A DNA stretch of 64,000 nucleotides from Novipirellula herctigrandis (lineage in GTDB: Bacteria > Planctomycetota > Planctomycetia > Pirellulales > Pirellulaceae), in NCBI GenBank assembly GCA_007859835.1, contig SJPJ01000001.1, positions 5,562,283 to 5,626,282 of the forward strand. Direction: 5' to 3'. This document shows, one piece after another, positions 8,646 through 38,569 of the stretch (within the stretch, counting starts at the first letter, position 1; each line of letters starts with the position of its first letter). Made by a program: the position numbers and the translations under genes. The notes under the pieces are model-generated. The model was not told where the DNA came from, did no database searches, and saw only the letters and a list, made by a program, of their open reading frames with translations.

Positions 8646-9661
8646 TGAACCAATCCGCTGAAATGAATCCCGAGCAACCGCTCGGCGACGATGACGTTCA
8701 AGCCATTAATCGATTGGGTGATGTCTACAATCGCCTTTGTCGTGAACTCGGACGTGTCATTGTGGGGCAGCATGCGACCATCGAGCAATTAGCGATTTGC
8801 TTGTTTGCCCGAAGGCACGCGTTGTTGATGGGAGTCCCTGGATTAGCCAAGACATTGCTGGTCAGCAAATTAGCAGAGACCATGTCGTTGGACTTTAGCC
8901 GGATTCAATTCACGCCTGATTTGATGCCGATGGATATCACCGGAACGGATATTCTGCAAGAAACCAGTACCGGTCATCGCGAGCTGCAATTTGTCAAAGG
9001 ACCGATCTTTGCCAATGTCGTATTGGCCGACGAGATCAATCGCGCGCCACCCAAGACGCAAGCTGCAATGCTTGAGGCGATGCAAGAGCATCGCGTTACG
9101 GTTCTGGGGAAACACTTTCCACTCGATGAACCGTTTTTGGTTTTGGCGACTCAAAATCCAGTTGAACAGGAGGGAACTTATCCGCTGCCCGAAGCGCAAC
9201 TCGACCGGTTCATGTCGCTGGTCGAATTGGATTACCCTAGCGAGGCGGAAGAAATCCAAATTGCCAAAACCACGACCGGCGATGAGTTGCCACGGTTGAA
9301 TCCTTTGTTGACGGCCGAGGAAATCATTGGCTACCAACATTTGGTTCGTCGCGTTCCGGTACCCGATCATATCTATACTTACGTCGCACGTTTGGTGCGA
9401 AAAACACGGCCTGATGGTGATACCGCACCGGCATGGCTCAAGCCGCTGGTTTCATGGGGCGCGGGTCCGCGTGCGGTTCAGAATTTGATCATTGGAGCAA
9501 AGAGCCGTGCGGCATTGGAGGGAAGCTACATGGTTAGACTTGAAGATGTCCACTATGTTGCGGCGCCCATTTTGACGCACCGTATTATCACGACATTCGC
9601 AGCCCAAAGCGAACGCGTCACCGCGAAAGAAATCGTCGAGCGTTTGGTTGCTGAATCCTAA
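8642..9661 (+). CDS. MoxR-family AAA+ ATPase
   Basis: 339-aa chaperone-type ATPase. Walker A is GVPGLAKT (residues 64-71), Walker B VVLADEIN (126-133), a MoxR signature NRAPPKTQAAMLEAMQE follows, and the sensor/arginine region reads PEAQLDRF. MoxR proteins usually work with a DUF58 protein and von Willebrand factor A proteins in assembly or maturation of periplasmic or membrane complexes. Those partners are present in this window (26545-31756) but about 17 kb away, beyond the nif block. The gene starts inside the stop of the GH2 gene (ATGA) and ends 62 bp before the convergent nifV stop. No clear terminator separates the two convergent genes. Confidence 0.95.
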   Translation: MMNQSAEMNPEQPLGDDDVQAINRLGDVYNRLCRELGRVIVGQHATIEQLAICLFARRHALLMGVPGLAKTLLVSKLAETMSLDFSRIQFTPDLMPMDITGTDILQETSTGHRELQFVKGPIFANVVLADEINRAPPKTQAAMLEAMQEHRVTVLGKHFPLDEPFLVLATQNPVEQEGTYPLPEAQLDRFMSLVELDYPSEAEEIQIAKTTTGDELPRLNPLLTAEEIIGYQHLVRRVPVPDHIYTYVARLVRKTRPDGDTAPAWLKPLVSWGAGPRAVQNLIIGAKSRAALEGSYMVRLEDVHYVAAPILTHRIITTFAAQSERVTAKEIVERLVAES

Positions 9662-9723: not shown

Positions 9724-10860
9724 TTAATAGCTGACGCCAGGACTAAGTTTTCGCTCGTATAATTCCAATACTTCAGTGGGTGAAAGCGACCTGCCCATCG
9801 AACTCGATCGCTGACGAACGGCGGTCAACAATCGATCCGCTTGGTCAGCATTCAATTCGATTCCCGATTCCGCTAACGCTTGATGCAGCGCCGCACGGCC
9901 CGAATGTTTTCCCAAGACGGTAACGGAATCGACTTGCCCGACTTCCGCCGGCGCGAAAGGTTCGTAGCTGCGACGATCTTCCTGCATCGCGCGTACATGG
10001 ATTCCCGACTCATGCCGAAAAACGTGTTTTCCCACAATGGCCTTGTGAGGAGCGATTGGCACGTTGCTTGCGTCAGCAACAAAATCGCACATTGACGTTA
10101 GGTTCTCCGTTCGTAAACCAATATCCTCTTTGAAGACTACTTTCAATGCCATCGCGACTTCTTCGAAAGCCGCATTCCCGGCTCGTTCGCCTAGCCCATT
10201 GATGGTCACATCGACACACTTGGCTCCGGCTTGAACGGCCGCTATCGAATTTGCGGTTGCCATTCCAAGATCGTTGTGTCCGTGAAATCCCAATACGATA
10301 TCGGGAACCGCCTCATGAACTTGGCATACGACATCCCATGTTCGCATTGGATCCCAAACGCCGACCGTGTCGGCTAAACGAACACGATTTGCACCATTCA
10401 TCGCGGCACAACAAGCCAATTCAATCAGAAAACGGGTCTCGGTGCGTGATGCATCTTGCAGGCCGACCGAGACAAAATCGAATCGACTGCGGGCATCGGC
10501 AAGCAGTAGGTTGAGTTGCCCAAACACCCAAGGCCGATCCCGTCCGAGAGTGGATAGCAAGATGCTCGACACTGGTAACGAAAAGTGAACCGCACGAAGA
10601 TTGGCACTCTCCGCTGCATCGAGGTCTTCGGACAACGCGCGACACCAACCGGTCAATCGACAATCAAGGCCGAGTCGCGTGATTTGGCGGATTGATTCAA
10701 TTTCATCTCGGCCCGCTGCTGGGGTTCCCACCTCGATTTCAGGGACCCCAAGGTCGCCGAGCATCATCGCGATGGTCTCACGCTGTGCATGAGAGAATGC
10801 AACATCAGCTCGTTGTTCGCCATCGCGAAGCGTCGTGTCGATTAGATAAACATCCATCAT
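9724..10860 (-). CDS. nifV: Homocitrate synthase NifV
   Basis: 378-aa member of the HMGL/isopropylmalate-synthase family. It condenses acetyl-CoA with 2-oxoglutarate to homocitrate, the organic ligand of the molybdenum in FeMo-cofactor. The catalytic start motif DTTLRDGEQ is at residues 8-16. The metal-binding motif GFHGHNDLGMA and the signature INGLGERAGNA follow at mid-protein, and the C-terminal VLGKHSGR motif is present. The length fits NifV, without the regulatory domain of leucine LeuA enzymes. The ATG at 10860 overlaps the ferredoxin stop by 4 nt (ATGA), so it is the last gene of the nif operon. NifV rather than a leucine or lysine pathway enzyme is inferred from this position. Confidence 0.93.
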   Translation of the reverse strand: MMDVYLIDTTLRDGEQRADVAFSHAQRETIAMMLGDLGVPEIEVGTPAAGRDEIESIRQITRLGLDCRLTGWCRALSEDLDAAESANLRAVHFSLPVSSILLSTLGRDRPWVFGQLNLLLADARSRFDFVSVGLQDASRTETRFLIELACCAAMNGANRVRLADTVGVWDPMRTWDVVCQVHEAVPDIVLGFHGHNDLGMATANSIAAVQAGAKCVDVTINGLGERAGNAAFEEVAMALKVVFKEDIGLRTENLTSMCDFVADASNVPIAPHKAIVGKHVFRHESGIHVRAMQEDRRSYEPFAPAEVGQVDSVTVLGKHSGRAALHQALAESGIELNADQADRLLTAVRQRSSSMGRSLSPTEVLELYERKLSPGVSY

Positions 10861-11159
10861 GCCATCAACAACTCTTCGGCGGCCTTGCCTTCTTCGAGCG
10901 AGTCGAGAATCTCGTCAATCTTCTCTTCGTCAATTTCACCGTACCACCATCCGTTGGGATACACCGTTAGCACTGGTCCTTTGTTACACATCTTGAAACA
11001 GCTTGTCGTTGATACCAATGCATCGAGTCCGCGATCGAGAATCTCGTCTTCGAGATACTGTGGCAAATCCGACGCACCTTTTTTGTGGCAAACACCTTTC
11101 AGTTCGCCGTTGGCGCGAGCACTACTGCAAACAAGAATATGATATTGAGGCTTTTCCAT
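10857..11159 (-). CDS. Thioredoxin-like [2Fe-2S] ferredoxin in the nif operon
   Basis: A 100-aa ferredoxin of the Clostridium pasteurianum / Azotobacter Shethna-protein-I type. Cluster cysteines are C11 and C24 (C-X12-C) and C54 and C58 (C-X3-C), exactly the family pattern. The acidic C-terminal half is typical. I chose the ATG at 11159, preceded by AAGTGAG; the frame can also begin at a GTG at 11171. It lies between nifB and nifV and is coupled to nifV by ATGA, so a role in electron supply to, or protection of, nitrogenase or its cofactor assembly is likely. It is not a bacterial 2[4Fe-4S] ferredoxin of the FdxN type. Confidence 0.9.
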   Translation of the reverse strand: MEKPQYHILVCSSARANGELKGVCHKKGASDLPQYLEDEILDRGLDALVSTTSCFKMCNKGPVLTVYPNGWWYGEIDEEKIDEILDSLEEGKAAEELLMA

Positions 11160-11192
11160 TTTGATTCTCACTTATTGTCGGAGTTAAGAAAG

Positions 11193-12491
11193 TTATCCAC
11201 ATCCCGTCCCTGGTCCGCTACACGGGCCACAGCCAACTCCATCCGAATCGCAACCTGATCCGTCGGCGGCGACACGTAGTGGCATGCGAGGTTTTTTTCC
11301 CGCGAAGACCAATTCGAGTGCTTCGTCGATTAGCCCTTCGGCAACCATTACACGGATGCCGGCTTTGGCGAGTGCTGTCTTGGGCGATGGACCGGCGTGT
11401 GCGGCTAAAACCGCGCGACAATCGGTCAACCGATTAGCAAGATCTTTCCAACGTCGCGATCCGCTGCCCGGTAACGGCGTTGGGCGTGTCTCAATCATCT
11501 CGAACGATCCGTCTGCTGCGCGTTCGAAGATCCATAGTTGTTCGGATTCACCGAGATGCTGATTCACCAACATCCCTTCCAGCGACGCGACGGCAACATA
11601 AGGCCGATTTTCGGCCGGATTCAGCGGACTTGTAGCCGTTTCGATCAACGCCTCTTGAACCAAATCCGAGTTCGCTTCACCGAGTAGTCCTACCGCGTCG
11701 GCTCGGCACCGAGCACAATGCGACATTTGTGGTAACCACTGACGAATATCCTTGCGGATTTCCATCATCAACTTTGGTTCTGGTGCCTCCAAATTTTCGA
11801 ACGGCGTCCCTTCGACTGGCACCAATGCCATGCAATTTTGAACGTCTACACCAAGATCGGCCATCACTTGAGTGATCTCGGTGATGTGGTGGTCATTGAC
11901 GCCCGGCATGACGATCGTATTGATTTTTACCGTGATTCCACATCGTTTGAGTGCGTTAATCGAGGCCAGTTGGCAATCCAGTAAATACTTCGCGCCCTCT
12001 TCGCCACGATAAACACGATTAGGCTGAGGACGGACCCAGCGATAAATTTGAGCACCAATTTTTGGATCGACGGCGTTAACGGTTACCGTTACATGGCTAG
12101 TTTTTAATTCCGCCAACTCTTCAACATACGGTTCGAGATTAAGTCCGTTCGAGGCGATGCATAAAATGATGTCTGGGTCCGACTCGCGAACCAGGCGTAG
12201 TGTTTCCATGGTCTCTTCGGCGTTTGCAAAGGGGTCGCCCGGTCCGGCGATTCCGACGACCGTGATGGGGCATTCGACCAACGCTTTGACCTTGCTAAGG
12301 TATGCCGCCGATTGGGCCGGAGAAAGCACGGTGCTGGTGACGCCCGGTCGGCTCTCGTTGGCACAATCGAATTTGCGATTGCAAAAATTGCAGCTAATGT
12401 TGCATTTTGGTGCGACCGGCAAATGAACCCGCCCGAATTTGTGCTTGGCACTTGCGCTAAAGCATGGGTGCCGCGAGGTGTCGATAGTCAT
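11193..12491 (-). CDS. nifB: FeMo-cofactor biosynthesis radical SAM protein NifB with C-terminal NifX-like domain
   Basis: 432-aa enzyme that builds the 8Fe-9S-carbide precursor NifB-co. The radical SAM CX3CX2C motif is at C30, C34 and C37 in CNISCNFCNRKFDC. AdoMet-side motifs such as GIAGPGDPFAN and the C-terminal Cys pair SHCARCRADAVG of the NifB core follow. Residues about 297-408 (YVAVASLEGMLVNQHLGE and on) form a NifX/NafY-like cofactor-carrier domain, fused here. The tail is Gly/Cys-rich with five cysteines in the last ~20 residues. It sits 22 bp downstream of nifN and 33 bp upstream of the ferredoxin. The fused domain may explain the lack of a separate nifX. Confidence 0.96.
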   Translation of the reverse strand: MTIDTSRHPCFSASAKHKFGRVHLPVAPKCNISCNFCNRKFDCANESRPGVTSTVLSPAQSAAYLSKVKALVECPITVVGIAGPGDPFANAEETMETLRLVRESDPDIILCIASNGLNLEPYVEELAELKTSHVTVTVNAVDPKIGAQIYRWVRPQPNRVYRGEEGAKYLLDCQLASINALKRCGITVKINTIVMPGVNDHHITEITQVMADLGVDVQNCMALVPVEGTPFENLEAPEPKLMMEIRKDIRQWLPQMSHCARCRADAVGLLGEANSDLVQEALIETATSPLNPAENRPYVAVASLEGMLVNQHLGESEQLWIFERAADGSFEMIETRPTPLPGSGSRRWKDLANRLTDCRAVLAAHAGPSPKTALAKAGIRVMVAEGLIDEALELVFAGKKPRMPLRVAADGSGCDSDGVGCGPCSGPGTGCG

Positions 12492-12513
12492 AGCAAAATG
12501 TCTCCGTTATCTT

Positions 12514-13881
12514 TCAAAAATAGGTAAAGCCAACGTCGGAATCTTGTTGACGTATTTCCAACAAGCTATTGGCGATCGAATCAAAGCGTGCTTGGGCACC
12601 GTCGTAGCCAACATGTAAAATGCGAGCGCCGCCAATACGGTCGTGAATCGGAAAGCCCACACGGATCAGAGGCACGTTTAACTCGCGAGCCAACTTGTAG
12701 CCCTTGCTATTTCCAACCAATAAATCGGGTTTAAGTTCCCGGGCATGGTCCGCGATTTCTTCAAAGTCGACACCTTCGCGGATCTCGCAATGCTCCGCAA
12801 TCTCGGGTGCAGCCGCATGAATGCAATCGGCCATCTTGCCACTCTTTCCCCCGGATGAGCAAAGCACGGGTTTCAAGCCAACTTCGCCCATCATCGCGGT
12901 CATCCCAACGACCAAGTCTTCCTCACCGAAAACAACAACCCGCTTTCCAATCACGTACTTATGAGCATCGATATATGAATCGACCAAACGTTCTCGCTTT
13001 GCCGTGTAGGATTCCGGTATAGGCCGTCCACTGATTTGTTGCAGTTTGTCAAACAGCGCGTCTGTGTCGCCAACGCCAATCGGAACGCCCAGTCGATGAC
13101 AAGGTATTCCAAACTTCTTTTCAAGCAGCGTCCCGGCACTGGTGGATTGTTTGGTCGTGAATCCGAATTCCAACGTCGCTTGGGCTTGTCCCATCCGTGC
13201 TGCTTGGTCAATCGTCGTCCCGCCGGGTGGCAACTTCTTGTATTCTGACCAAGTGCCTCCATCGAGTCGGTCGGAATAGTCGGGCAACAGTATCGGATCG
13301 AGGCCGAAATCGGCCACGACTTGCTTCAGCCAACGTAGATCGGCAGGCGACAGCATCCCCGGAATCACGTTCACGAGCCCTTTGATCGTCGGCCCCGGTT
13401 TGGCCAAAACGTCCACAATCGCACGAACGGCATCGTGGTATCCTGTGGCATGTGTACCGGTATAACTCGGTGTGGCGACGTGAACCAAGTGGGGAAGAGC
13501 TTCACCTTCATGGTCTTTTCGGAACTCATGTAAGAACATCTTCACATCGTCGCCGATCGTTTCGGAAAGGCACGTTGTCGCAATACCAATCATCGTTGGG
13601 TTGTAGCCTTCGATCACGTTAGCAAGTCCAATCCGAATGTTCTTGCCTCCTCCGAAAATCGCAGTATGCTCGCCAAAATTTGACGAAGCGATGTCCATCG
13701 GTTCGCGAAAATGGCTAATCATGTAGCGGCGGATGTAGGTTGAACATCCTTGTGAACCATGCAAGAAGGGTAACGCACCTTCGATACCGCTGAACGCTAA
13801 GCATGCGCCGAGCGGTGTGCAAAGTTTGCAGGCGTTTCGAGTCGCCGTGAAGTGTTGTGATACAGGAAGCGAGGCAATCAT
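12514..13881 (-). CDS. nifN: Nitrogenase cofactor scaffold subunit NifN
   Basis: 455-aa NifK-like subunit of the NifEN scaffold on which NifB-co is matured to FeMo-cofactor. It shows ACKLCTPLGACLAFSG and HGSQGCSTYIRRYMISHF, which mirror the P-cluster region of NifK, then ATTCLSETIGDD and the central PGGTTIDQAARMG. The ATG at 13881 overlaps the nifE stop by 4 nt. NifN rather than NifK is assigned because the true nifK lies upstream next to nifD, and because of the CKLCTPLGA variant of the first cysteine motif. Confidence 0.94.
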   Translation of the reverse strand: MIASLPVSQHFTATRNACKLCTPLGACLAFSGIEGALPFLHGSQGCSTYIRRYMISHFREPMDIASSNFGEHTAIFGGGKNIRIGLANVIEGYNPTMIGIATTCLSETIGDDVKMFLHEFRKDHEGEALPHLVHVATPSYTGTHATGYHDAVRAIVDVLAKPGPTIKGLVNVIPGMLSPADLRWLKQVVADFGLDPILLPDYSDRLDGGTWSEYKKLPPGGTTIDQAARMGQAQATLEFGFTTKQSTSAGTLLEKKFGIPCHRLGVPIGVGDTDALFDKLQQISGRPIPESYTAKRERLVDSYIDAHKYVIGKRVVVFGEEDLVVGMTAMMGEVGLKPVLCSSGGKSGKMADCIHAAAPEIAEHCEIREGVDFEEIADHARELKPDLLVGNSKGYKLARELNVPLIRVGFPIHDRIGGARILHVGYDGAQARFDSIANSLLEIRQQDSDVGFTYF

Positions 13882-15302
13882 GATGCGTTTCCCCCTTCCA
13901 CGAATCGGTTACCGTTCCGTGAGCGGTCACCGTCTAGCAATCGGTGACGGTCTACAAGCCGGTCACGCAGCGAGGCAAGTTTCCAAACCGGACTGGTGAC
14001 CGTGCCGTGAACTTCTTTTGCGAAGTTCAACATGCCCTCGAATCCAGCAAGCCCAATTTTGCGTTCGTGATTATGGTCGCAGAAACCGAGCCCGAGCTTG
14101 TAAGCAATCGGTCGCTCCTTTACGCCACCAATCAGCAGATCAGCCTTTTTTTCTTCGAGAAATTTCGCCAACTCTAGCGGGTTGGTATCATCGAGAATGA
14201 CCGTGCCTTCGTCACTGAGTTCTTGAAGTCGTTTGTAGTCTTGCTTGTTACCTGTTTGCGATCCGGCGATGACCGTTTTCATGCCAAGAGTGCGAAGAGA
14301 ACGGATCATCGATAGAGCCTTGAACGCACCTCCGGTATAGACGGCTGCTCGTTTTCCCTGAAGATCATGCTTATATTTACGGAGTTGTGGAACAAGGTTT
14401 GAAACTTCATCGCGGACTAGGTTTTGAGTGTTTTTCATGACCGTTTTGTCATTCAAGTACTCTGCAACGTCGTACAACGCCTTGCTCATGTCTTCGATGC
14501 CGAAGTAGGAAACGCGAATGATCGGGATTCCGTATTCCTGTTTCATCTTCATCGCAAGTTGTGTCATTGACCCAGAACATTGGACTACGTTCAGTGCCGC
14601 TCCGTGGCACCGACGGATATCGTCGACCCGTCCGTCTCCCGTGATCGTAGCGACGACGTCTACACCCATTTTTTTATAGTAATCCTTGATTACCCAAGTC
14701 TCTCCCGCGATGTTGAAATCGCCGAGTATGTTGATCGAAAGCGGGCTGATTCCGGTCGTATCACCGGTACCAACGAGTTGGTCGAGAGCGTTGCAGGCCG
14801 CGGTATAGCCGTCTTTTTTTGATCCTTTGAAACCTTCGGAGTGGACCGGGATCGTCTCCACACCCGTTTCTGCCGAGACGCGGCGACAGATCGCTTCGAC
14901 GTCATCACCAATTAGACCGACGATGCAAGTGCTGTAGATAAACGCCGCTTTGGGGCGATAATGTTCAATCAGTTCAACGAGCGCTTGGTAGAGTTTTTTC
15001 TCACCACCGAAGACGACATCTTTTTCCTGTAGGTCGGTTGAAAAACTCATGCGGTGCAGTTGCGGTCCACTCGACCATGCTCCACGAATGTCCCATGTGT
15101 AGGCTGCACATCCGATCGGCCCGTGAATCACATGCAACGCATCGGCGATTGGGTAGAGGACGACACGTGATCCACAGAACACGCAAGCGCGTTGGCTCAC
15201 GGATCCGGCAACACTTTGCTTTTCGCAAGCGATGTTAAACGGAGCTGTTCCTTTTTCGTGGATGTGTGCTCGGCGGTCGGCAAGGATTTGCGTGGTAGTC
15301 AT
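13878..15302 (-). CDS. nifE: Nitrogenase cofactor scaffold subunit NifE
   Basis: 474-aa NifD-like subunit of NifEN. It has RACVFCGSRVVLYPIADALH (C40, C43) and IHGPIGCAAYTWDIRG (C65), then YSTCIVGLIGDD, HSEGFKGSKKDGY and VVQCSGSMTQLA. The HSEGFKG segment and the absence of a homocitrate-site HSYDYGGPY motif separate it from NifD. It is translationally coupled to nifN (ATGA). A 97-bp leader between nifK and nifE contains a stem-loop (15326-15341). Confidence 0.95.
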   Translation of the reverse strand: MTTTQILADRRAHIHEKGTAPFNIACEKQSVAGSVSQRACVFCGSRVVLYPIADALHVIHGPIGCAAYTWDIRGAWSSGPQLHRMSFSTDLQEKDVVFGGEKKLYQALVELIEHYRPKAAFIYSTCIVGLIGDDVEAICRRVSAETGVETIPVHSEGFKGSKKDGYTAACNALDQLVGTGDTTGISPLSINILGDFNIAGETWVIKDYYKKMGVDVVATITGDGRVDDIRRCHGAALNVVQCSGSMTQLAMKMKQEYGIPIIRVSYFGIEDMSKALYDVAEYLNDKTVMKNTQNLVRDEVSNLVPQLRKYKHDLQGKRAAVYTGGAFKALSMIRSLRTLGMKTVIAGSQTGNKQDYKRLQELSDEGTVILDDTNPLELAKFLEEKKADLLIGGVKERPIAYKLGLGFCDHNHERKIGLAGFEGMLNFAKEVHGTVTSPVWKLASLRDRLVDRHRLLDGDRSRNGNRFVEGGNAS

Positions 15303-15325
15303 TGCGTTTTTGATTTCCAGTTCGC

Positions 15326-15341
15326 CAGCCTTTTCAGGCTG
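15326..15341 (-). promoter_or_regulatory. Stem-loop in the nifK-nifE spacer
   Basis: A perfect 6-bp stem CAGCCT/AGGCTG closes a 4-nt loop. Read on the transcribed (minus) strand the loop is GAAA, a GNRA tetraloop. No U-run follows, so it is more likely an RNA-stability or processing element than a terminator. The same stem occurs in the nifD-nifK spacer. Confidence 0.6.
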
Positions 15342-15399
15342 ACATTCGACGGATGTCCTCTAACTGCCAGACGGAGAAGTCCGGCATCCAATTTCGGCT

Positions 15400-16791
15400 T
15401 TACATCGTCAATTCGAAACTCTCTTCGGGTGAGTCACGATCTTGGCGATCCAAGAAGGCATCGAGAATTTTTTCGCACAATCGCATCGCTCCTCGATAAC
15501 CCGTCGTAGGAAAGTACTGATGTCCGATGCGGTCAATGATTGGGAAGCCGTGCCGCAACAAAGGGATATCCTCGTCACGGCTGATGTACTTGCCGTAAGT
15601 GTTGCCGATCAGCAAATCGACTTTTTCTCGTTTGATCAATTGGTGCAAATACAACATGTCTGCTTGGGGGCCTTGTTTGGCGATCACCTCTTTGACGCTG
15701 TCGCCCAATACCTCGCCAATACGGCGAAGGAACGCTTTACCAGGTGTTCCTGTGACGATGTACTTTGGCCGCATGTCTAAGTCGACAAGAAACTGAGTCA
15801 GAGAAACAAGTTGGTCGGGATCGCCCCAAAGTGCTACCGTTTTGCCATAGAAGTACTGAGACATGTCTGAAACTAAGTCGACCAACCGGCCACGTTCAGC
15901 GGTGATTTCAGCGGGCACTTCACCGCCGTTGTACTTGCGAAGTGCTTGGATGAAAATGTCCGTCGCTCGTAAACCGATCGGCAGCGGTAACGTTTCCTGT
16001 GGCACTTGGCATTTGTTTTTAAGTGCTTCGGCGGCAGGTCCGGAGCAGATTGGCCCGAGTGCGATCGTGCCTGCGGAATCGCCTGTCGATTCGAGCTGAT
16101 CGATCGTGGTGCCGCCGTCGGGATACATGTTGTATTCCGACTTGAGTGGTGCATCGAGAACGCCGGACGTGTCAGGAAACGTGATCCCATCGAGTCCCAT
16201 CAATTTGACGAGCCGTTTGATTTCACTCATGTCGGCGGGTTCGACCCACCCCGGAATGATGTTGACCTGGCCGTCAATCTTTTCGTCTGTGGTGGATGTG
16301 GAAAAGTAGTCGACCATCGCCTTGGTCATGTTGGCAAACCCGGTCGTATGCGATCCGACGTAACTTGGCGTGTTGCAATGGATCACGCGTTTACCCTCGG
16401 GAACGAACCCTTTCGCGACTGCTGCATCGGCGATTTGAGGAATGTCGTCGCCGATCGTTTCGGATAGACAAGTCGTGTGAACGGCGACCACATCTGGTTT
16501 GTAGACCGAGAAGATGGTGTTAAGACCCTGCAACAAGTTCGCTTGTCCACCGAACACGGACGATCCTTCGGTGAAAGAGCTGGTCGCGGCCATCGCGGGT
16601 TCTTTGTAGTGCCGACTGAGAGTGCTGCGGTGATAAGAGCAGCAGCCTTGTGAGCCGTGGCTATGCGGCAAACAGCGATGAATCCCAAGGGCGGCGTACA
16701 TTGCTCCAATAGGTTGACACGTTTTCGCAGGATTAACGGTCAATGCTTGACGTTCAACGACGTCGTCAGTGGTATGTCGTAAGAGTGCCAT
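15400..16791 (-). CDS. nifK: Nitrogenase molybdenum-iron protein beta chain NifK (short, Clostridium-type)
   Basis: 463-aa beta subunit of dinitrogenase. P-cluster cysteines are C25 (KTCQPIGA), C50 (HGSQGCCSYHR) and C108 (HTTCLSETIGDD); spacings of 25 and 58 match Azotobacter C70, C95 and C153. The protein therefore lacks about 45 N-terminal residues relative to Azotobacter NifK, as is known for Clostridium-type NifK. The central PDGGTTIDQLESTGDS and a C-terminal region ending in a short acidic tail are normal. It is separated from nifD by an 86-bp spacer with a hairpin. Confidence 0.97.
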   Translation of the reverse strand: MALLRHTTDDVVERQALTVNPAKTCQPIGAMYAALGIHRCLPHSHGSQGCCSYHRSTLSRHYKEPAMAATSSFTEGSSVFGGQANLLQGLNTIFSVYKPDVVAVHTTCLSETIGDDIPQIADAAVAKGFVPEGKRVIHCNTPSYVGSHTTGFANMTKAMVDYFSTSTTDEKIDGQVNIIPGWVEPADMSEIKRLVKLMGLDGITFPDTSGVLDAPLKSEYNMYPDGGTTIDQLESTGDSAGTIALGPICSGPAAEALKNKCQVPQETLPLPIGLRATDIFIQALRKYNGGEVPAEITAERGRLVDLVSDMSQYFYGKTVALWGDPDQLVSLTQFLVDLDMRPKYIVTGTPGKAFLRRIGEVLGDSVKEVIAKQGPQADMLYLHQLIKREKVDLLIGNTYGKYISRDEDIPLLRHGFPIIDRIGHQYFPTTGYRGAMRLCEKILDAFLDRQDRDSPEESFELTM

Positions 16792-16828
16792 TTTGATATG
16801 TTCCTTCTGTGGTTGAGTTTGGATGCAT

Positions 16829-16849
16829 GTCAGCCTTATCGAGGCTGAC
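16829..16849 (-). promoter_or_regulatory. Stem-loop in the nifD-nifK spacer
   Basis: A perfect 8-bp stem GTCAGCCT/AGGCTGAC with a 5-nt loop sits just upstream of nifK. A second, slightly bulged inverted repeat (CACGTTCGA/TCGACGTG) lies next to it toward nifD. There is no U-run. The CAGCCT/AGGCTG core is shared with the nifK-nifE spacer. Confidence 0.62.
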
Positions 16850-16877
16850 CGTCACGTTCGAGTGTTCGACGTGTGTT

Positions 16878-18545
<1,668 letters not shown>

Positions 18546-18582
18546 TGGTTTGAAAGTAAGAATGAATTCGCTGTTAAGTAGA

Positions 18583-18629
18583 GGTGGCTTCTTGCCATCG
18601 TTTCGGCGTCGAAGTGGCAGAATGCCACC
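18583..18629 (-). promoter_or_regulatory. Alternative hairpins in the nifH-nifD spacer
   Basis: A perfect GTGGCA-N3-TGCCAC hairpin (18614-18628) lies 21 bp after the nifH stop. GGTGGC at 18583-18588 can alternatively pair with GCCACC at 18624-18629, giving a larger loop. No U-run follows. Hairpins here are known in other nif operons to stabilise nifH mRNA over nifDK; that role is inferred. Confidence 0.5.
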
Positions 18630-18649
18630 GCTACAGATTTTTTTTCTCT

Positions 18650-19901
<1,252 letters not shown>

Positions 19902-19953
19902 TGCGCTCAAAGTTTCTGATAGCAACATCAAGATATCGAAGCCGATAGGAATC

Positions 19954-19994
19954 AAAAAAATAGCCGGTCGTAAGCAAAGCTCACCACCGGCTAT
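19954..19994 (-). terminator. Rho-independent terminator after nifA
   Basis: On the minus strand, a 9-bp perfect stem ATAGCCGGT/ACCGGCTAT with a 17-nt loop is followed at once by seven T residues (A-run at 19954-19960 on plus). It lies 24 bp past the nifA stop, so nifA and nifH are probably separate transcripts despite their shared direction. Confidence 0.85.
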
Positions 19995-20017
19995 TGGATG
20001 CATCCGCTTCGAGGCAC

Positions 20018-21640
20018 TCACAACTCTGAGTTCCAATCAATTCCCAAATTCCTGACCTTGTAACGAATCATCCTCGAACTGATTCCCAGCTCTCTTGCAG
20101 CTGCGGCCATGTTTCCGCCTGATCGTTTCAAGGCATCGCTAATCATATCCCGTTCGAGCGAGTTGACTCGAGTGCTCAATGAGAAACAATTTTCGGTTTC
20201 GGATCCATTCGGATGTTTTTCGTCTGGCATTCGGATTGTCGGCGGAAAATTGTGGCTATGGATTACACCTTCTTGCGACAGAAGTACCGCATGCTCGATA
20301 CAATTTTCTAGTTCACGAACATTTCCTGGCCAGTGATACATCATCAATGTGTCGATAGCTGGGGTACTAATTCGTTTGATCGGCCGATCCATTCGCTTTG
20401 AGAATTTAGCGACGAAGTGATTTGCTAATTGCAAAATGTCATCACGACGCTTGCGAAGCGGCGGTAGGTGAACAGGGAAAACATTGATGCGGTAGTACAA
20501 ATCTTGTCGAAACTGTCCTTGTCGAACCGCCTGCTCTAAATCTCGGTTCGTCGCGGCTACAATGCGGACGTTCGCTGTTCGAGTGGTGCTGCTTCCTACT
20601 CGCTCGTATTGCCGTTCCTGCAAGACTCTTAGCAATTTCACCTGTATGATCGGTGAAAATTCACCGATTTCGTCGAGAAACAGCGTTCCGCCCTCCGCTT
20701 CTTCGATGCGACCGTTTCGCTGTTGAACCGCTCCGGTGAAAGCTCCCTTTTCATGCCCGAATAATTCGCTTTCCAGTAAGTTTTCGTTCAATGCGGCGCA
20801 GTTAACCTTGACTACCGGTTTTTGCGATCGAGCACTTGTGCAGTGAATTGCGGTTGCGACAAGTTCTTTGCCTGTCCCCGATTCACCTCGGATCAAGATT
20901 GTTGTATCACTCGGAGCAACTTGCTGAATTTGTGTATAGAGTTGACGCATCGGTTTCGATCCGCCGATCAAATTACTTGGGCGAAATCTTTCCTGAAGCG
21001 TATCCCGCAGCTGCAAATTTTGCAGTTCTAGCATTTCACGTTCGAGTCGCCGAGTGCGACGACCGTTCACATCGTAAGCAATCATACTGGCGATGATGCC
21101 AAGGGTCTCTGCGGCGTCCTGCAATTCATCTGCATTCTTCGTTTCGATATCAGCCGAAAGCGTACCGAAGGTTTCTCCTTCGACCGTGATCGGGACGCAG
21201 ACGAAAGCGTGTGATTCCAATTGAAATGGAGTGCGTTGGTGAATTCGATTCCGAAAACGTGGATCATCGCCAATCGGGCTAACGATCTCCGGTTGGCCCG
21301 CTTGCAAGACTCGGCCGATCACCCCTTCACCGCGATCGTAACCAACATGTCCCCGTGCGTCCGTAAGTGGTGTCTTGGTTGCCGCTAATTCGAGCCGTTG
21401 ACCATCGACGGAAACCATCATCACCGTCACATGCCTCATCCCCAAGTGTTGCTCGATACAGTCAACAATTTCCAATAGTGTTTGGTTCTGTCCAGGATGA
21501 TCCGAAAGCAAGCGAGCGATCTGGAGCATGGCTTTTCGTTCGAGTTCACGTCGTCGGCGAAGTTCCGCGCATGAGGCAGCACTTGCTAGATCGTCGTGCA
21601 TGGGGCAACCTTCACCTGCACAATTTGTATGCACTTCCAT
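20018..21640 (-). CDS. nifA: NifA-like sigma-54-dependent transcriptional activator
   Basis: 540 aa from the chosen ATG at 21640; the frame is open to 21853 but the extra residues look non-coding, and M at 21685 is another option. The order is a short N-terminus with C7-X4-C12 (NCAGEGCPMH), a GAF sensor domain (about 50-195), the AAA+ domain and a Fis-type helix-turn-helix (about 500-530, MAAAARELGISSRMIRYKV). Walker A is GESGTGKE (252-259), the sigma-54 contact loop is GAFTGA (299-304), and Walker B is FLDEIGE (321-327). The CX4C interdomain motif of oxygen-sensitive NifA is not present. Position beside nifHDK and modABC makes nif control the obvious role, though the protein could be named VnfA/AnfA-like by its N-terminus. 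Confidence 0.9.
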   Translation of the reverse strand: MEVHTNCAGEGCPMHDDLASAASCAELRRRRELERKAMLQIARLLSDHPGQNQTLLEIVDCIEQHLGMRHVTVMMVSVDGQRLELAATKTPLTDARGHVGYDRGEGVIGRVLQAGQPEIVSPIGDDPRFRNRIHQRTPFQLESHAFVCVPITVEGETFGTLSADIETKNADELQDAAETLGIIASMIAYDVNGRRTRRLEREMLELQNLQLRDTLQERFRPSNLIGGSKPMRQLYTQIQQVAPSDTTILIRGESGTGKELVATAIHCTSARSQKPVVKVNCAALNENLLESELFGHEKGAFTGAVQQRNGRIEEAEGGTLFLDEIGEFSPIIQVKLLRVLQERQYERVGSSTTRTANVRIVAATNRDLEQAVRQGQFRQDLYYRINVFPVHLPPLRKRRDDILQLANHFVAKFSKRMDRPIKRISTPAIDTLMMYHWPGNVRELENCIEHAVLLSQEGVIHSHNFPPTIRMPDEKHPNGSETENCFSLSTRVNSLERDMISDALKRSGGNMAAAARELGISSRMIRYKVRNLGIDWNSEL

Positions 21641-21963
21641 TGCGATCGTTCTAGGGGACTTTGACAAAGTGTCGCAGGTTATCATTTTTGGAACACGGGA
21701 GAGAACTAGACGAAACCGCGCAAAACGCAGCGGCTTAGTCGAATTCGGAGTACTACAATGCGAGTCGATCCGCGAAACATATGCCTCACAAAGGCATATG
21801 CCAATGAGATGCGGGGCAAGTTGCGTACCGCAGTAGCGTTGTCGGTATTCCATTTGCGTATCCTATTTCCATTTGCGTATACAGCGCGGCATCGTCCTTC
21901 AAGTGACTGTGGGTAATTCGTTGCCACGTGGTAAGGGACTTCCAGTAGGTTGGAACACTCAAA
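21641..21963. other. Divergent nifA-modA control region
   Basis: Within these 323 bp, upstream of both nifA and modA, I see a perfect 9-bp inverted repeat CATATGCCT/AGGCATATG with a 5-nt loop (21778-21800). A 14-bp direct repeat TTCCATTTGCGTAT occurs at 21848-21861 and 21867-21880 (19-bp period), and a GACA-N3-TGTCGC element at 21663-21675. No convincing -24/-12 pair and no obvious ModE palindrome was found. Confidence 0.6.
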
Positions 21964-22752
21964 ATGAAGATCGTAATGAAGCCATCGTTGGTTTTTCTAT
22001 TCGCCCTAATGTCGTGGTTGCTACTGCTTGGGTGCGGCGGAGTGGAAAAAAATGTGCCCGAAGAGAACGCCGCGATTGTGTTAGCAGCTGCAAGTACGGT
22101 GGAGGCGATGAATGAGATTGTTGACCAATTCGAGTTGCAAACCGGAACGCAAGTGGTCCTTTGCAGTGGGGCTTCGAATGGTCTTGCGCGTCAAATTGCC
22201 GCGGGGTCACCGGCGAATGTTTTTGTCTCGGCAAACCAGCAATGGGCAGACGCGATTATCGAGTCAGGAATTGCTGAGGAAAGCACGCCGCTGCTTACCA
22301 ATCGGCTCGTGTTAGTTGTCCCCAAGGGAAACCCAGCACGCGTCCAACAACCGAGTGATTTGAATTCGGACGAAGTTCGGCGGATCGCAATTGCTGGTGA
22401 AAATGTGCCGGCCGGGATTTACGCGGAACAGGTTTTGCGGAAGCTCGGGTTATATGAAACGCTCGTGTCTGTGAACAAGTTGGTACGGGGCAGTGATGTG
22501 CGATTGACGTTGACATATATAGAGCGAGGTGAAGTGGAAGCTGGGATTGTCTATGCAACCGACGCGAAGAACTCGGATGGCGTGGAGATTGTTAGCGAAT
22601 TCGATCCGCAGTCGCACGACGCAATTGTCTATCCCGTGTTATTGCTCAACAATGGAATAGCGAATGTTATGGCGAAACCGTTTTACGAGTATCTGAAATC
22701 AGACGAAGCGATTAGAGTATTTGAATCGCATGGTTTTCGTCCGGCGCGATAG
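21964..22752 (+). CDS. modA: Molybdate ABC transporter substrate-binding lipoprotein ModA
   Basis: 262-aa exported binding protein. The N-terminus is a lipoprotein signal with lipobox LLLGC (C24). The mature part opens with VLAAASTVEAMNEIVDQFE, and GASNGLARQIAAGSPANVFVSA is a classic ModA oxyanion-binding segment. Later motifs are NRLVLVVPKGNPA and AGIVYATDAK. It delivers molybdate (or tungstate) to ModBC for FeMo-cofactor. It is the first gene of modABC, divergent from nifA, and 23 bp before modB. ModA rather than a sulfate-binding protein follows from these motifs and the nif context. Confidence 0.94.
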   Translation: MKIVMKPSLVFLFALMSWLLLLGCGGVEKNVPEENAAIVLAAASTVEAMNEIVDQFELQTGTQVVLCSGASNGLARQIAAGSPANVFVSANQQWADAIIESGIAEESTPLLTNRLVLVVPKGNPARVQQPSDLNSDEVRRIAIAGENVPAGIYAEQVLRKLGLYETLVSVNKLVRGSDVRLTLTYIERGEVEAGIVYATDAKNSDGVEIVSEFDPQSHDAIVYPVLLLNNGIANVMAKPFYEYLKSDEAIRVFESHGFRPAR

Positions 22753-22775
22753 ATAAAAACTTCAAAGGTCAACCA

Positions 22776-23456
22776 ATGTCATCTGCTGAATGGAATGCGA
22801 TTTGGCTCAGCATCCAGGTGGCGTTTGTGGGTGTCCTTGTGAGTTTGCCGATTGGTATAGCAACAGGATGGCTGCTCGCTCGAAAACGCTTTTTCGGCAA
22901 AGCGGTGGTGGAAACGATCGTCAATTTGCCGTTGGTGTTGCCTCCGGTTGTGACCGGCTATCTGCTACTGGTGACATTCGGACGCAGTGGGTTTTTAGGT
23001 CGGATCCTTGAGAATTGGTTCGGATTGCGATTTGTGTTCGATTGGAAAGGAGCTGCTTTGGCAGCAGCGGTCGTCTCGCTTCCATTGATGGTGCGTGCAA
23101 TTCGGGTCGCGTTCAGTTCGGTTGATCCGAAATTGGAACAAGCGGCACGAACGCTTGGGGCAAGCCCGCTCGATACGTTTTTTACTGTTTCGCTTCCGCT
23201 GGCTCGTCACGGTGTGATCGCAGGTTGCATGCTTTCGTTTGCCAGAAGTTTAGGTGAGTTTGGAGCGACAATTATGATTGCCGGAAGTATCCCAGGTGAA
23301 ACTCAAACGATTCCGCTCTACATTTTTAACCAACTGCAAGTACCAGAGGGAATGAACGGGGCGCGAAGTATCGTGTTGTTTTCAATTGCGATTGCGGTTG
23401 TCGCATTGTTCGCCGGTGAGCGACTTGATCGTCGAGGTGTCGCGGGGCAAGCATGA
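22776..23456 (+). CDS. modB: Molybdate ABC transporter permease ModB
   Basis: 226-aa inner-membrane permease with about five transmembrane helices. It carries the EAA-type loop that docks to the ATPase, here EQAARTLGASPLDTFFTVSLP, and the ModB-typical FARSLGEFGATIMIAGSIPGETQT. The start at 22776 gives MSSAEWNAIWLSIQVA, with ModB-like spacing to the first helix. Its stop overlaps the modC start by 4 nt (ATGA at 23453). Confidence 0.94.
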   Translation: MSSAEWNAIWLSIQVAFVGVLVSLPIGIATGWLLARKRFFGKAVVETIVNLPLVLPPVVTGYLLLVTFGRSGFLGRILENWFGLRFVFDWKGAALAAAVVSLPLMVRAIRVAFSSVDPKLEQAARTLGASPLDTFFTVSLPLARHGVIAGCMLSFARSLGEFGATIMIAGSIPGETQTIPLYIFNQLQVPEGMNGARSIVLFSIAIAVVALFAGERLDRRGVAGQA

Positions 23457-24139
23457 ATAACACGCTTTCAATCAATTGTCGTTATCAACACGCATCCGGA
23501 TTTAAATTGGATGTGGTGATGAATGCTACGGACACCGTAACCGCGATTTGTGGTTCGTCGGGTAGCGGCAAGACGACGCTGTTGTCACTGATCGCAGGGT
23601 TGGCGATACCAGAAAGTGGTTTCATTTGTCTTGGCGATCAAGTTCTGGTTGATACAACGAAAAGCATTTTTGTCACGCCTGAGCGTCGTCAGATTGGGGT
23701 TCTTTTCCAAGAGAATCGATTGTTTCCTCATTTGAAGGTCAAAGCCAATATTGAGTATGGAAATCGAAGACGTGGTGACGACCAAGTGTGTGTTGCGAAG
23801 CTAATCAAGACACTCGAAATCCAACACGTTCTTGGTCGGTATCCCGGATCACTTAGCGGGGGACAACAGCAACGGGTCGCCTTGGCACGCGCGATTGCGT
23901 CGGGGCCGAGGCTACTACTACTGGACGAACCACTCACAGCGGTGGAAGAGAGCCTGCGCGAGCAAATATCGACATACATCGAGCGAGTGGTTGAGGAGTT
24001 TCAAATTCCTACACTGTTGGTTAGCCACAATCGGTTGCTGGTTGAGCAAATTGCTCAGGGCGTTTTTACGATTGAAAACGGCTTCTTACGAGCGGATAGC
24101 ATCAACTCGAATTGCTATTCTCAACCGTGCTGCTGTTGA
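23453..24139 (+). CDS. modC: Molybdate ABC transporter ATPase ModC, short form
   Basis: 228-aa ATP-binding subunit. Walker A is GSSGSGKTT, the Q-loop follows in FQENRLFPH, the ABC signature is LSGGQQQRVALARA, and Walker B is LLLLDEPLTAV, with the switch His in VSHNRL. Typical ModC is about 350 residues and ends in a molybdate-binding TOBE/Mop domain; this one stops after the ATPase core and a short Cys-containing tail (QPCCC). The regulatory domain is therefore missing, with no leftover Mop sequence seen downstream. Other ABC importers could share such an ATPase, but coupling to modB settles the role. Confidence 0.92.
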   Translation: MNNTLSINCRYQHASGFKLDVVMNATDTVTAICGSSGSGKTTLLSLIAGLAIPESGFICLGDQVLVDTTKSIFVTPERRQIGVLFQENRLFPHLKVKANIEYGNRRRGDDQVCVAKLIKTLEIQHVLGRYPGSLSGGQQQRVALARAIASGPRLLLLDEPLTAVEESLREQISTYIERVVEEFQIPTLLVSHNRLLVEQIAQGVFTIENGFLRADSINSNCYSQPCCC

Positions 24140-24320: not shown

Positions 24321-24836
24321 ATGAGCAGATTGGCGGGGAGACTAGCCGAGGGCGAACAATCGGCGTGGGCTGAATTGTATGATGTGACTGTCGATGCGCT
24401 GTTTCATTACGTCACCGCGTTGAGTGGAGATCGTGGCGCAGCGGAGGAAATTTTGCAGGAGGTTTTTATACGATTGTTCCGCTTCCGAGATCGTTTGATG
24501 GATGTCGGTGATTTGAGAGCGTACGTGTTCATGGTGACACGAAACGAAACCAATCGATGGTTGAGTCGAACGCCACGTCGTCCAAGGCCGTTGCAACTTG
24601 ACGAACAATCTGCGTTGCAGGTCAATGATTCACACGAGGAAGATGCCGAATTTTTACGATATGTCCTTGCCCAACTATCCAATGACGAACGCGAGATTGT
24701 TCACTTGAAAATTTATTCCGAGTTCACGTTTGCACAGATTGCTGAGATTTTGGAGGAGCCGGTGGGAACGTGTGCGAGTCGATACCGGCGCACCTTGTCC
24801 AAACTTCGAACGAACATTCAGGAGCAGATCGGATGA
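24321..24836 (+). CDS. ECF-type RNA polymerase sigma factor
   Basis: 171-aa sigma-70 family protein with only regions 2 and 4. Region 2 is about residues 10-80 (FHYVTALSGDRGAAEEILQEVFIRLFRFRDR), and region 4 is about 112-165 (LSNDEREIVHLKIYSEFTFAQIAEILEEPVGTCASRYRRTLSKL, a helix-turn-helix). A GGAG sequence 5-8 nt upstream of the ATG supports the start. Its stop overlaps the next gene by ATGA, the arrangement usual for an ECF factor and its membrane partner. Target promoters are unknown. Confidence 0.94.
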   Translation: MSRLAGRLAEGEQSAWAELYDVTVDALFHYVTALSGDRGAAEEILQEVFIRLFRFRDRLMDVGDLRAYVFMVTRNETNRWLSRTPRRPRPLQLDEQSALQVNDSHEEDAEFLRYVLAQLSNDEREIVHLKIYSEFTFAQIAEILEEPVGTCASRYRRTLSKLRTNIQEQIG

Positions 24837-25372
24837 GCCAGCACGATCCAATCGAAAAATCGCTTCGGCGTTTAACGCCTCCGCAGGCACCCGCGTCGCT
24901 GCGTGTTGCCGTGCTCGGTGCGATCGAAATTCAACGCGATTCGGAAACCAATGTGACATTGGCCGAATCGGAAAAACGTCACTGGTTTGTTCGCATTGAA
25001 CGGTTTGCAACCTATGCGGCTCCATGTTTTTTACTTTTAAGTCTGTTCACATTCGGCCTCGTTAATTGGTCCACCGGTAAACTGCTCCACGGCAATCACC
25101 AATCAGTATCGGATTCCACGAACCAAACCACGGACGACAGGAGTCGCTTTGCAAGCGGAAATCCTTTCAATTCGCCCCAAGCGTTCTTTCGTCACCACCT
25201 TGCTGTCCTCGAAACATTGAATAAAGAGCTGTTCCGTGAAACGACTAAAGAAATTCCTCAAGTGGACCGCGATCTTCCTCCTCTCGGTCGTATCCATCGT
25301 GATCTTGATTGTCGCGTTTCTGAATTGGCGAGCGTCACGCCAATTGGAAACACGTTTGGCGACATTGCGTGA
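24833..25372 (+). CDS. Single-pass membrane protein coupled to the ECF sigma factor (possible anti-sigma)
   Basis: 179-aa protein starting at an ATG that overlaps the sigma stop (ATGA). An N-terminal cytoplasmic part of about 60 residues (MSQHDPIEKSLRRLTPPQAP) is followed by one transmembrane helix (about 65-83, PCFLLLSLFTFGLVNW) and an extracytoplasmic tail. The topology and position suit an anti-sigma factor, but there is no zinc HXXXCXXC motif, so this is inference. The last 45 codons overlap the next gene out of frame and look poorly conserved in composition. Confidence 0.6.
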   Translation: MSQHDPIEKSLRRLTPPQAPASLRVAVLGAIEIQRDSETNVTLAESEKRHWFVRIERFATYAAPCFLLLSLFTFGLVNWSTGKLLHGNHQSVSDSTNQTTDDRSRFASGNPFNSPQAFFRHHLAVLETLNKELFRETTKEIPQVDRDLPPLGRIHRDLDCRVSELASVTPIGNTFGDIA

Positions 25373-26438
25373 GGCCGGCAAACCGCTTTGTATTGCTGAT
25401 CTTCAGCCTTCACCAGTCGACGACTCCCAGAATGCAGCCATAGCGATCGGGTCGCTTGAGAAGGTCATCTCGGATTATGATCATCAGCTTGCCAAAGCAA
25501 CACTCGAAATAGAAACCGATGAAGAACATGTTGCCGCTGCAATCCAAGTCGCTCGAAAAAGCGAGATTGAGAATCCCGGTCTTGTAGTGAAGCTTCGTGA
25601 AGCCTCACGTTTGCCCAAATACCAGCCGGACTACGATTTCTCGCTTGGTCCGACGCCACTTGTGGAAGATGTTCTAAAACAGGTTCATCCGATACGAACC
25701 GTTGTTCGTGTTTTGCGTGGTCATGGATTGATGTCGCTTTCGGACGGAAAAACTGACGAGGCAGTTCTTGATGCCATCGCAATCTTGCGTTGGAGTGAGC
25801 ACCTTGCCAAAGAACCGCTGATGGTCAACTACTTGGTCAGTGTTGCGTTGTTTGGCGAAGCAGCCGATTTAGCCGCGAGCTGCATTTATGCTGAGGATGC
25901 GTCGTTGGAAATGCGTTCGGAACTGGTGCGCATGTTTGAAGATACTCCTCTTGCGGACCATTTTGCAAAGACACTTGACACGGAACTCGCATTTGGGATC
26001 TCCTCGTTCGATTCGTTTCCACTTTCACGTTTCCAATTCATGCTTGGCGAACTTTCCGATTATATCGACGTTTTTTCAGAGATGAAATCCATCGCGAAAA
26101 TGCCGACTGGGCTAGCTCCGTCAACATCTCCGAAGGAGGGCCTTTTTACCGCACTCGCATGGCCAAGTTTTGCGTCGAGTTTGGCTAGTCTGAGACGCAG
26201 CCAAGCCAAGGCTCGAGCTCTTCAAATTTTGGCTACGTGGCAGACATTGGGAAGTGACACAGCAATCTCGATTGACGATCTTGGCCTACCCGAATCCGTG
26301 TGCACCGACCCGTTTGATGGATCATCAATGAAGCTAACCGTTGTCGGTGATTCGATCGCTATCTACGCGGTTGGCCAGGACATGGTTGATAACGACGGTA
26401 GTGTTGACGACGAACGAGATATCGGTATTTCGCCCTGA
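25236..26438 (+). CDS. Hypothetical membrane-anchored protein
   Basis: 400 aa from a GTG preceded by AAAGAG. Residues 1-30 are a positively charged N-terminus plus a strong transmembrane helix (FLLSVVSIVILIVAFL), after which the protein is mostly helical and soluble, presumably outside the cytoplasm. I do not recognise a domain. It resembles the large anchored proteins of unknown function common in planctomycetes. It overlaps the preceding membrane protein by 137 bp in another frame; the clean signal-anchor supports this start. A terminator follows about 50 bp later. Confidence 0.72.
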   Translation: MKRLKKFLKWTAIFLLSVVSIVILIVAFLNWRASRQLETRLATLREAGKPLCIADLQPSPVDDSQNAAIAIGSLEKVISDYDHQLAKATLEIETDEEHVAAAIQVARKSEIENPGLVVKLREASRLPKYQPDYDFSLGPTPLVEDVLKQVHPIRTVVRVLRGHGLMSLSDGKTDEAVLDAIAILRWSEHLAKEPLMVNYLVSVALFGEAADLAASCIYAEDASLEMRSELVRMFEDTPLADHFAKTLDTELAFGISSFDSFPLSRFQFMLGELSDYIDVFSEMKSIAKMPTGLAPSTSPKEGLFTALAWPSFASSLASLRRSQAKARALQILATWQTLGSDTAISIDDLGLPESVCTDPFDGSSMKLTVVGDSIAIYAVGQDMVDNDGSVDDERDIGISP

Positions 26439-37448: not shown

Positions 37449-37529
37449 GGCGTGAAAATCGCAATGAGTCGGAATAGAGTGAGGAAAATGCGGAAGGCGA
37501 GACGAGATTGGAACAGTCGCAATTATCGA

Positions 37530-38435: not shown

Positions 38436-38569
38436 GGGCTCCTGCTGCCGCTCGGTAAGAGGTAAATTTACGCTCAATAATGATCAAGAAACTCGCCACA
38501 TTGACTAGCATCCGTCAGCCATCTCAGGATGTCAACCACGTAGAAAAGCACGTAGAAGCCGTCCATCGA

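Follow-up and report, generated by a model that had tools for sequence, protein, structure and literature searches.

Nitrogen fixation in planctomycetes

Nitrogen fixation genes of planctomycetes have been described from both cultures and metagenomes (statements from the literature follow excerpts of the cited papers throughout). The cultured Crateriforma sp. HD03 reduces acetylene, and nifHDK are recorded in three Novipirellula strains (PMC12628686, 2025). Surface-ocean planctomycetes carry nif genes, which form a single operon in one metagenome-assembled genome (PMC6792437), and metagenomic planctomycete nitrogenases have been grouped with those of Verrucomicrobia and Lentisphaerae in cluster IIB (PMC8399215). 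Cluster III nitrogenases are mostly those of obligate anaerobes (PMC10880615), and Novipirellula is typically strictly aerobic (PMC12910023). Here, a nif/mod island is analyzed at positions 9724-24139 of a 64,000-nucleotide stretch of the Novipirellula herctigrandis genome (contig SJPJ01000001.1; the whole stretch is hereafter the window). An earlier note, made from the letters alone, had presented this island as a complete, apparently functional planctomycete system and planctomycete diazotrophy as known mainly from marine metagenomes; the first part stands, while the second gives way to the cultured Crateriforma (PMC12628686). Neither diazotrophy of a planctomycete in culture nor the presence of nif in Novipirellula is new, both having been published. 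The regulatory set-up is a different matter: the operator upstream of nifH and the absence of nifI look like a variant special to a planctomycete group, and no publication on a planctomycete nif operator or nifI loss is apparent from titles and abstract openings in the open-licence literature.

The solved molybdenum-iron (MoFe) protein chains 1mio and 5vpw, which we take to be of the Clostridium pasteurianum type, are the obvious comparison. The window proteins share with this type the long NifD insertion, the short NifK N-terminus and the ligand motifs. They differ in that nifI1/nifI2, usual in relatives, are missing from the operon, a sigma-54 type promoter precedes nifH and a NifA-type activator is encoded alongside; the host also differs, with CtaD- and cbb3-type oxidases. 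A cluster III molybdenum (Mo) nitrogenase under a sigma-54/NifA-family switch and without nifI in its operon is the best overall explanation of these data, and we hold it with good confidence.

A cluster III Mo-nitrogenase

Genes were called by listing and translating open reading frames (ORFs) and scanning the window proteins with NCBIfam and Pfam profiles. The nif genes and nifA lie on the minus strand and the mod genes on the plus strand:

9724-10860, minus: nifV, homocitrate synthase (TIGR02660, 436 bits, best match, cut-off 463)
10857-11171, minus: fdx, thioredoxin-like 2Fe-2S ferredoxin, GTG start (NF041612, E 5.5e-26, below cut-off; solved relative 1f37)
11193-12491, minus: nifB, radical SAM protein with a C-terminal NifX-like domain at residues 306-395 (TIGR01290, 371 bits, cut-off 344; PF04055 and PF02579)
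12514-13881, minus: nifN (TIGR01285, 309 bits, cut-off 327; PF00148)
13878-15302, minus: nifE (TIGR01283, 631 bits, cut-off 505)
15400-16791, minus: nifK, MoFe protein beta chain (TIGR01286, 422 bits, cut-off 427; end-to-end alignment to 1mio_B, Cys/Ser motifs kept)
16878-18530, minus: nifD, MoFe protein alpha chain, 550 aa, GTG start (TIGR01282, 642 bits, cut-off 654; alignment to 5vpw_A including the long insertion)
18578-18634, minus: hairpin in the nifH-nifD spacer of the transcript (RNA fold)
18650-19483, minus: nifH, Fe protein (TIGR01287, 454 bits, cut-off 394)
20018-21640, minus: nifA-type sigma-54 activator, putative start (TIGR01817, 507.7 bits, cut-off 528.85; PF01590, PF00158 and PF02954)
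21964-22752, plus: modA, molybdate-binding protein (TIGR01256, 172 bits, cut-off 62.5)
22776-23456, plus: modB, molybdate permease (NF006939 and TIGR02141, both above cut-off)
23453-24139, plus: modC, short, ATPase domain only (TIGR02142, 228 bits, cut-off 285)

The gene row proposed by the earlier note (nifHDKENB-fdx-nifV, nifA and modABC) is thus borne out, every gene being confirmed by profiles, and the minimal set nifHDKENB is complete. The NifX-like (Nitro_FeMo-Co) domain is indeed fused to NifB, a fusion that is not special, as alignments of the protein with most of its kin are almost full-length. ModC has only 228 aa and covers positions 8-218 of the 353-position modC model; the ferredoxin is 91% identical to that of each genus mate (G531 and G532). 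A TTG at 18545 was replaced as the nifD start by the GTG at 18530, which is identical in G531 and G532. For the activator, alignment makes a start at 21640 (540 aa) most likely, rather than 21853. The 119-nt nifH-nifD spacer is predicted to fold at -32.8 kcal/mol (z -3.4; none of 200 shuffles as stable), and its hairpin might raise the nifH mRNA level over that of nifDK.

Profile scores separate the enzyme from the alternative nitrogenases: NifD scores 642 bits with the nifD model against 302 (VNFD) and 288 (ANFD), and NifK scores 422 bits with nifK against 296 (vnfK) and 282 (anfK). Alignments read by eye against solved MoFe chains show the cluster-holding Cys, Ser and His motifs conserved, at the positions that we take to be the P-cluster and iron-molybdenum cofactor (FeMo-cofactor) ligands; the key residues are present, as had been claimed. 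In a 52-row NifHDK tree the window falls among Chlorobi, sulfate reducers and bacteria of the Planctomycetes-Verrucomicrobia-Chlamydiae group, with the cluster I type nitrogenase of G121 far outside. The name cluster III for this NifHDK group follows common and published usage. Judged by its sequence, this is a Mo-nitrogenase of the ordinary cluster III type, and the system is complete and apparently functional. NifHDK would form the enzyme, NifB, NifEN and NifV would make FeMo-cofactor, and ModABC would import molybdate.

Absence of nifI

No PII gene (nifI1/nifI2) lies between nifH and nifD in the window. In a survey of 98 loci that used PII proteins as queries, six loci lacking nifH were dropped; among the remaining 92 with nifH and nifD, 74 have at least two PII genes in the nifH-nifD interval and 18 have none. 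These 18 are the window, eight other loci of its family, G121 (cluster I), G352, L182-L184 (family f14), L032, L033, L047 and L088. Within the 13-row NifHDK clade described below the genes are absent from all 12 testable loci, and 71 of 75 named loci with both genes retain nifI1/nifI2. The lack, which the earlier note listed without interpreting it, is a clade-wide trait and looks like a variant. Four other planctomycete loci (L103, L180, L181 and L185) retain the pair. With G121 left out, the trait needs two changes on the tree, so that nifI loss is not established as a single event. Two Verrucomicrobia loci, L047 and L088, likewise have no nifI between nifH and nifD. Loss of nifI has been tied to aerobic life in other phyla (PMC12903952). 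Because the operon holds no NifI1/NifI2 genes, control of the nitrogenase should be mainly transcriptional.

The nifH promoter and its upstream dyads

The region before nifH contains a promoter element and a set of dyads, all on the minus strand:

19563-19577, minus: sigma-54 type -24/-12 element TGG-N10-GC, TTTGGTACGACCTTCGCA, 94 bp upstream of the nifH ATG, conserved in the genus
19710-19719, minus: candidate activator site of the form ACA-N4-TGT, without a counterpart at this position in G531 or G532
19751-19760, minus: candidate activator site of the form (G)ACA-N4-TGT(C), with counterparts at -273 in G531 and -277 in G532
19862-19871, minus: candidate activator site of the form (G)ACA-N4-TGT(C), with counterparts at -385 in G531 and -388 in G532
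19892-19901, minus: dyad ACA-N4-TGT, 30 bp from the 19862 dyad, matching position in G531 (-415) and G532 (-418)

The -24/-12 element is near-identical at -93/-94 in G531 and G532, and TGG-N10-GC occurs at -89 to -113 in six of nine further clade members. Across 12 regions the pattern matches 17 times, against a shuffle mean of 5.9 and a largest shuffle count of 14. A scan with the strict form TGGCAC-N4-6-TTGC returned four matches, none upstream of nifH, and the element itself departs from that consensus.

ACA-N4-TGT is found upstream of nifH in all 12 clade members examined: their 500-bp regions contain 30 sites in total, against a mean of 1.2 after shuffling (none of 200 shuffles gave as many). 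Among three-base dyads with spacings of 0-15 and at least 10 occurrences it is the most enriched (32 against 1.3; 13 loci, 30 shuffles). The longer GACA-N4-TGTC reaches 1.83 per kb upstream of nifH (11 sites) against 0.027 per kb (seven sites) in the remainder of these loci. Planctomycetes are not alone in having the core: across the 65 named loci beyond the clade it is enriched as well, with 58 sites in 42 loci against 7.1 expected. The top dyad there is TAC-N6-GTA (49 against 2.9 expected), and TGT-N10-ACA occurs 28 times (6.3 expected). The groups differ in the outer bases only. The classical NifA site TGT-N10-ACA is missing from the island, its five matches in the window all lying elsewhere; upstream of nifH it is absent from 11 of 12 clade members and occurs twice in L033. 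Two further dyads of the window were set aside: the one at 18526 overlaps the start of nifD, lacks a counterpart in G531 and in G532 and was judged to be chance; the other, at 19544, is on the downstream side of the promoter and is not put forward as a site.

The activator and its proposed specificity

The product of the nifA-type gene combines an N-terminal Cys motif, a GAF domain, an AAA+ domain with GAFTGA and a Fis-type helix-turn-helix. Together with RpoN in the genome and the -24/-12 promoter these features mark a bacterial enhancer-binding protein. As NifA in the strict sense it falls short, its TIGR01817 score lying below the cut-off even though this is its best match. Among the aligned activators of the planctomycete loci, the pattern C-x3/4-C-x11-C is seen in the window, L167, L170, L171, L172 and L033; only the last two Cys occur in L176 and L184, and none in L174 and L175.

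The nearest described regulators are AnfA, with the published site TAC-N6-GTA (PMC7294313), and VnfA, with GT(T/A)C-N6-GTAC (PMC9542535). Both systems share with the window more than one dyad per promoter, placement upstream of a sigma-54 promoter and, apparently, N-terminal cysteines at the GAF domain. The window differs in a GAC half-site in place of TAC, so that its dyad is one base per half-site away from the AnfA site, in the control of a Mo-nitrogenase and in the Cys pattern C-x3/4-C-x11-C. An AnfA/VnfA-like regulator has already been proposed for nif in Desulfovibrio (PMC4641369), and such an activator on a Mo operon is for that reason not itself new.

Recognition helices were sorted into classes across 87 loci; four stayed unsorted, among them L054, which was moved out of the planctomycete type as mis-sorted, and 34 of the 87 show no nifA in the fetched stretch. 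The planctomycete helix R-x-x-R/Q-Y-K (15 loci) goes with GAC-N6-GTC in 11 and with TAC-N6-GTA in none. The helix R-x-x-G-I/L-R (eight loci) shows the reverse, with no GAC-N6-GTC and TAC-N6-GTA in seven, and the helix R-Q-x-G-Y (26 loci) has TAC-N6-GTA in 14 and TGT-N10-ACA in 16. By taxon, TAC-N6-GTA upstream of nifH occurs in Chlorobi, Bacteroidota, Spirochaetes and Lentisphaerae, besides those 14 R-Q-x-G-Y loci. At about residue 526 of 540, in the recognition helix, the window activator has Arg in place of the Gly of other classes.

The nifH-to-nifV row would be read mainly from the sigma-54 promoter 94 bp before nifH. The neighboring NifA/VnfA/AnfA-family activator would bind the GACA-N4-TGTC-like dyads some 140-325 bp upstream of that promoter, and its N-terminal cysteines would sense redox or oxygen. 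A more specific proposal is advanced tentatively, as possible but short of probable: in this clade an AnfA/VnfA-like activator of changed specificity (GAC-N6-GTC for TAC-N6-GTA, helix Arg for Gly) runs a cluster III Mo-nitrogenase that has lost the post-translational ammonia switch of NifI, with control that is purely transcriptional and possibly redox-sensed.

Phylogeny and distribution

NifHDK trees were built by a quick method for 52 of 98 loci and by a careful method for 18. A 13-row clade (support 100; 100/100) unites the genus, seven other members of the family and the planctomycete loci L032, L033 and G352. A tree that keeps the ten family members together is rejected (approximately unbiased test, p-AU 0.001), and so is one that joins the genus to its sister in rpoB, G433/G434 (p 0.0002); the Nif proteins of that sister instead fall with L032/G352 (95/97). 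Window and G531 held together in NifHDK are also rejected (p 0.0006), a pair that rpoB favors weakly (90/91). These groupings were drawn from rpoB, a single gene, and from family labels after the first NifHDK tree was known. The conflict between NifHDK and rpoB suggests transfer among planctomycetes, which is its simplest reading. G352, of the same phylum, and the Phycisphaeraceae locus L032 (NAT22) are 88-93% identical in DNA along their length, with two flanking proteins at 95 and 98%. Both share with the window the 13-row clade, a gene row with fdx, nifV and modABC, and the lack of nifI; they differ in being kin at phylum level only, in showing no nifA in their fetched stretch and in a NifD 70% identical to that of the window.

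Crateriforma sp. HD03, placed in Pirellulaceae by its authors, shares with the window its phylum and the Mo-nitrogenase genes nifHDKBEN (PMC12628686). Its cluster also has FeSII and hya (PMC12628686); neither turned up among the scanned window proteins, and no genome search for them was made. In the same family, G121 (L178) carries a cluster I-like nitrogenase in another layout, so that the family has two nitrogenase types. If G121 is of the Crateriforma kind, the contrast with the window is a NifD only 37% identical, without the insertion, in that other layout.

All three genus genomes examined (the window genome, G531 and G532) contain nifD. In the family a nifD-profile match occurs in 12 of 241 genomes, of which G579 has a NifE-like protein as its best match, leaving 11 with NifD; in the phylum sample matches occur in 20 of 392 genomes (10 above cut-off), a count that includes NifD relatives. 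NifH, NifD, NifK, NifE, NifN and NifB are 86-96% identical among the three genus members, while identity at their fourfold sites is just 30-48%, close to saturation; for rpoB the figures are 95-96% and 43-46%. The nif proteins are under purifying selection, and the island is old in the genus, neither a fresh arrival nor a relic. Recent transfer within the genus, considered from DNA identity, is unsupported, the fourfold sites being far diverged in every pair.

Supporting functions and genomic surroundings

The absence of nifU, nifS and nifI1/nifI2 from the window, also reported in the earlier note, holds: the genome's matches to NifU_N (one), class-V aminotransferase (16) and PII (three) all lie outside it. 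A search of the rest of the genome for nifU/nifS or isc/suf, which that note had suggested, found SufU above cut-off with two adjoining class-V aminotransferase matches. SufU and a neighboring aminotransferase gene thus plausibly cover for nifU/nifS and probably supply Fe-S clusters. The genome also encodes Rnf A, C, D, E and G (G below cut-off) beside a 2-oxoacid oxidoreductase, pyruvate:ferredoxin oxidoreductase (PFOR; 1735 bits) and two terminal oxidases, of cbb3 and CtaD type. An NfnAB-like pair (ferredoxin:NADP oxidoreductase) lies at 36018-38477, 12 kb from the island, with 5jca subunits as best or second-best solved matches; it is a possible source of reduced ferredoxin. NifH probably receives its electrons from the 2Fe-2S ferredoxin, or from other ferredoxins, reduced by PFOR, Rnf and/or NfnAB. 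In G531 (L167, 1023-7446), genes for an electron-transfer flavoprotein and an acyl-CoA dehydrogenase adjoin the nif row and are a possible electron supply.

The flanks of the island are as follows:

8642-9661, plus: moxR, left neighbor, outside the island (PF07726)
26545-29573, plus: DUF58 and BatA genes, right of the island and outside it (PF01882, PF07584)

In the window, the nif and mod genes, an extracytoplasmic function (ECF) sigma gene and two unknown genes separate moxR from DUF58. In G532 a moxR homolog is followed directly by a DUF58 and a BatA-type gene with no nif between, its nif row lying on another contig beside modA, in a stretch with no modB or modC match; in G531 about seven ORFs separate nif from moxR, and nif is on the flank opposite to DUF58. 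Because this arrangement differs among the three, the island has had more than one address. The ECF sigma gene and the two unknown genes (24321-26438, between modC and DUF58) also occur in G531 and are absent from the G532 moxR-DUF58 junction. No transposase or integrase domain was found with Pfam among 40 window proteins, a subset of the ORFs, in line with the earlier claim, nor among 10 flank proteins of G531 and G532.

Alternative explanations

That the dyads bind a regulator other than the adjacent nifA product is unlikely, if far from negligible: position alone cannot name the binder, and ACA-N4-TGT precedes nifH in 22 of the 34 loci without nifA in the fetched stretch. Against such a regulator, the operator type varies with the recognition-helix class of the activator, the site is one base per half-site from that of AnfA (PMC7294313; for VnfA, PMC9542535) and a sigma-54 type element lies downstream of the dyads. 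It is improbable that the island is a non-functional or seldom-used relic of horizontal transfer. The patchy occurrence of nif in the family (12 of 241 genomes) and the disagreement of NifHDK with rpoB fit a relic, but no broken gene is seen, purifying selection is strong, promoter element and dyads are conserved and the same nif row is present in three of three genus genomes. Contamination from a non-planctomycete can be set aside almost entirely, even though obligate anaerobes from other groups are said to dominate cluster III (PMC10880615). The island sits inside a contig of 8,578,108 bases in a 9.5 Mb genome, its GC content (0.50-0.53) resembles that of its surroundings, its neighbors recur in genus mates and, in the NifHDK trees, the nearest nitrogenases come from the same genus and family.

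Several observations also weigh against a functional cluster III Mo-nitrogenase under transcriptional control by the adjacent activator. Five of the eight Nif proteins (NifD, NifK, NifN, NifV and NifA) score slightly under the curated cut-offs; the named family is the best match for four of them, the exception being NifN, for which the fused NifEN model (336 bits, cut-off 1229) outscores nifN, the second match. The class-V gene next to SufU contains a run of N. Binding of the dyads by the activator is suggested by position and the class-level parallel, and that parallel may rest on one change on the tree and is no statistical proof. GAC-N6-GTC also occurs in six of the 26 R-Q-x-G-Y loci, and it is missing from the 450 bp ahead of nifH in four loci with the planctomycete helix (L176, L180, L181 and L183). 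Three PII matches lie elsewhere in the genome, far from nif (one with an internal stop), and DraT/DraG have been reported beside nif in Verrucomicrobia (PMC7341956); a post-translational switch may thus operate via free PII proteins or DraT/DraG.

Implications

A stable cluster III branch in planctomycetes that have oxygen-respiration genes and marine relatives bears on what must change for such an enzyme to function in aerobes. The loss of nifI and the changed operator are concrete, testable candidates for the aerobic adaptation of a cluster III nitrogenase, and the operator may serve as a sequence marker from which nif regulation could be predicted in planctomycetes that are not in culture. 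If the proposed control is correct, bacteria that respire oxygen would operate a nitrogenase of the anaerobe type, controlled solely at the level of transcription and possibly through redox sensing.

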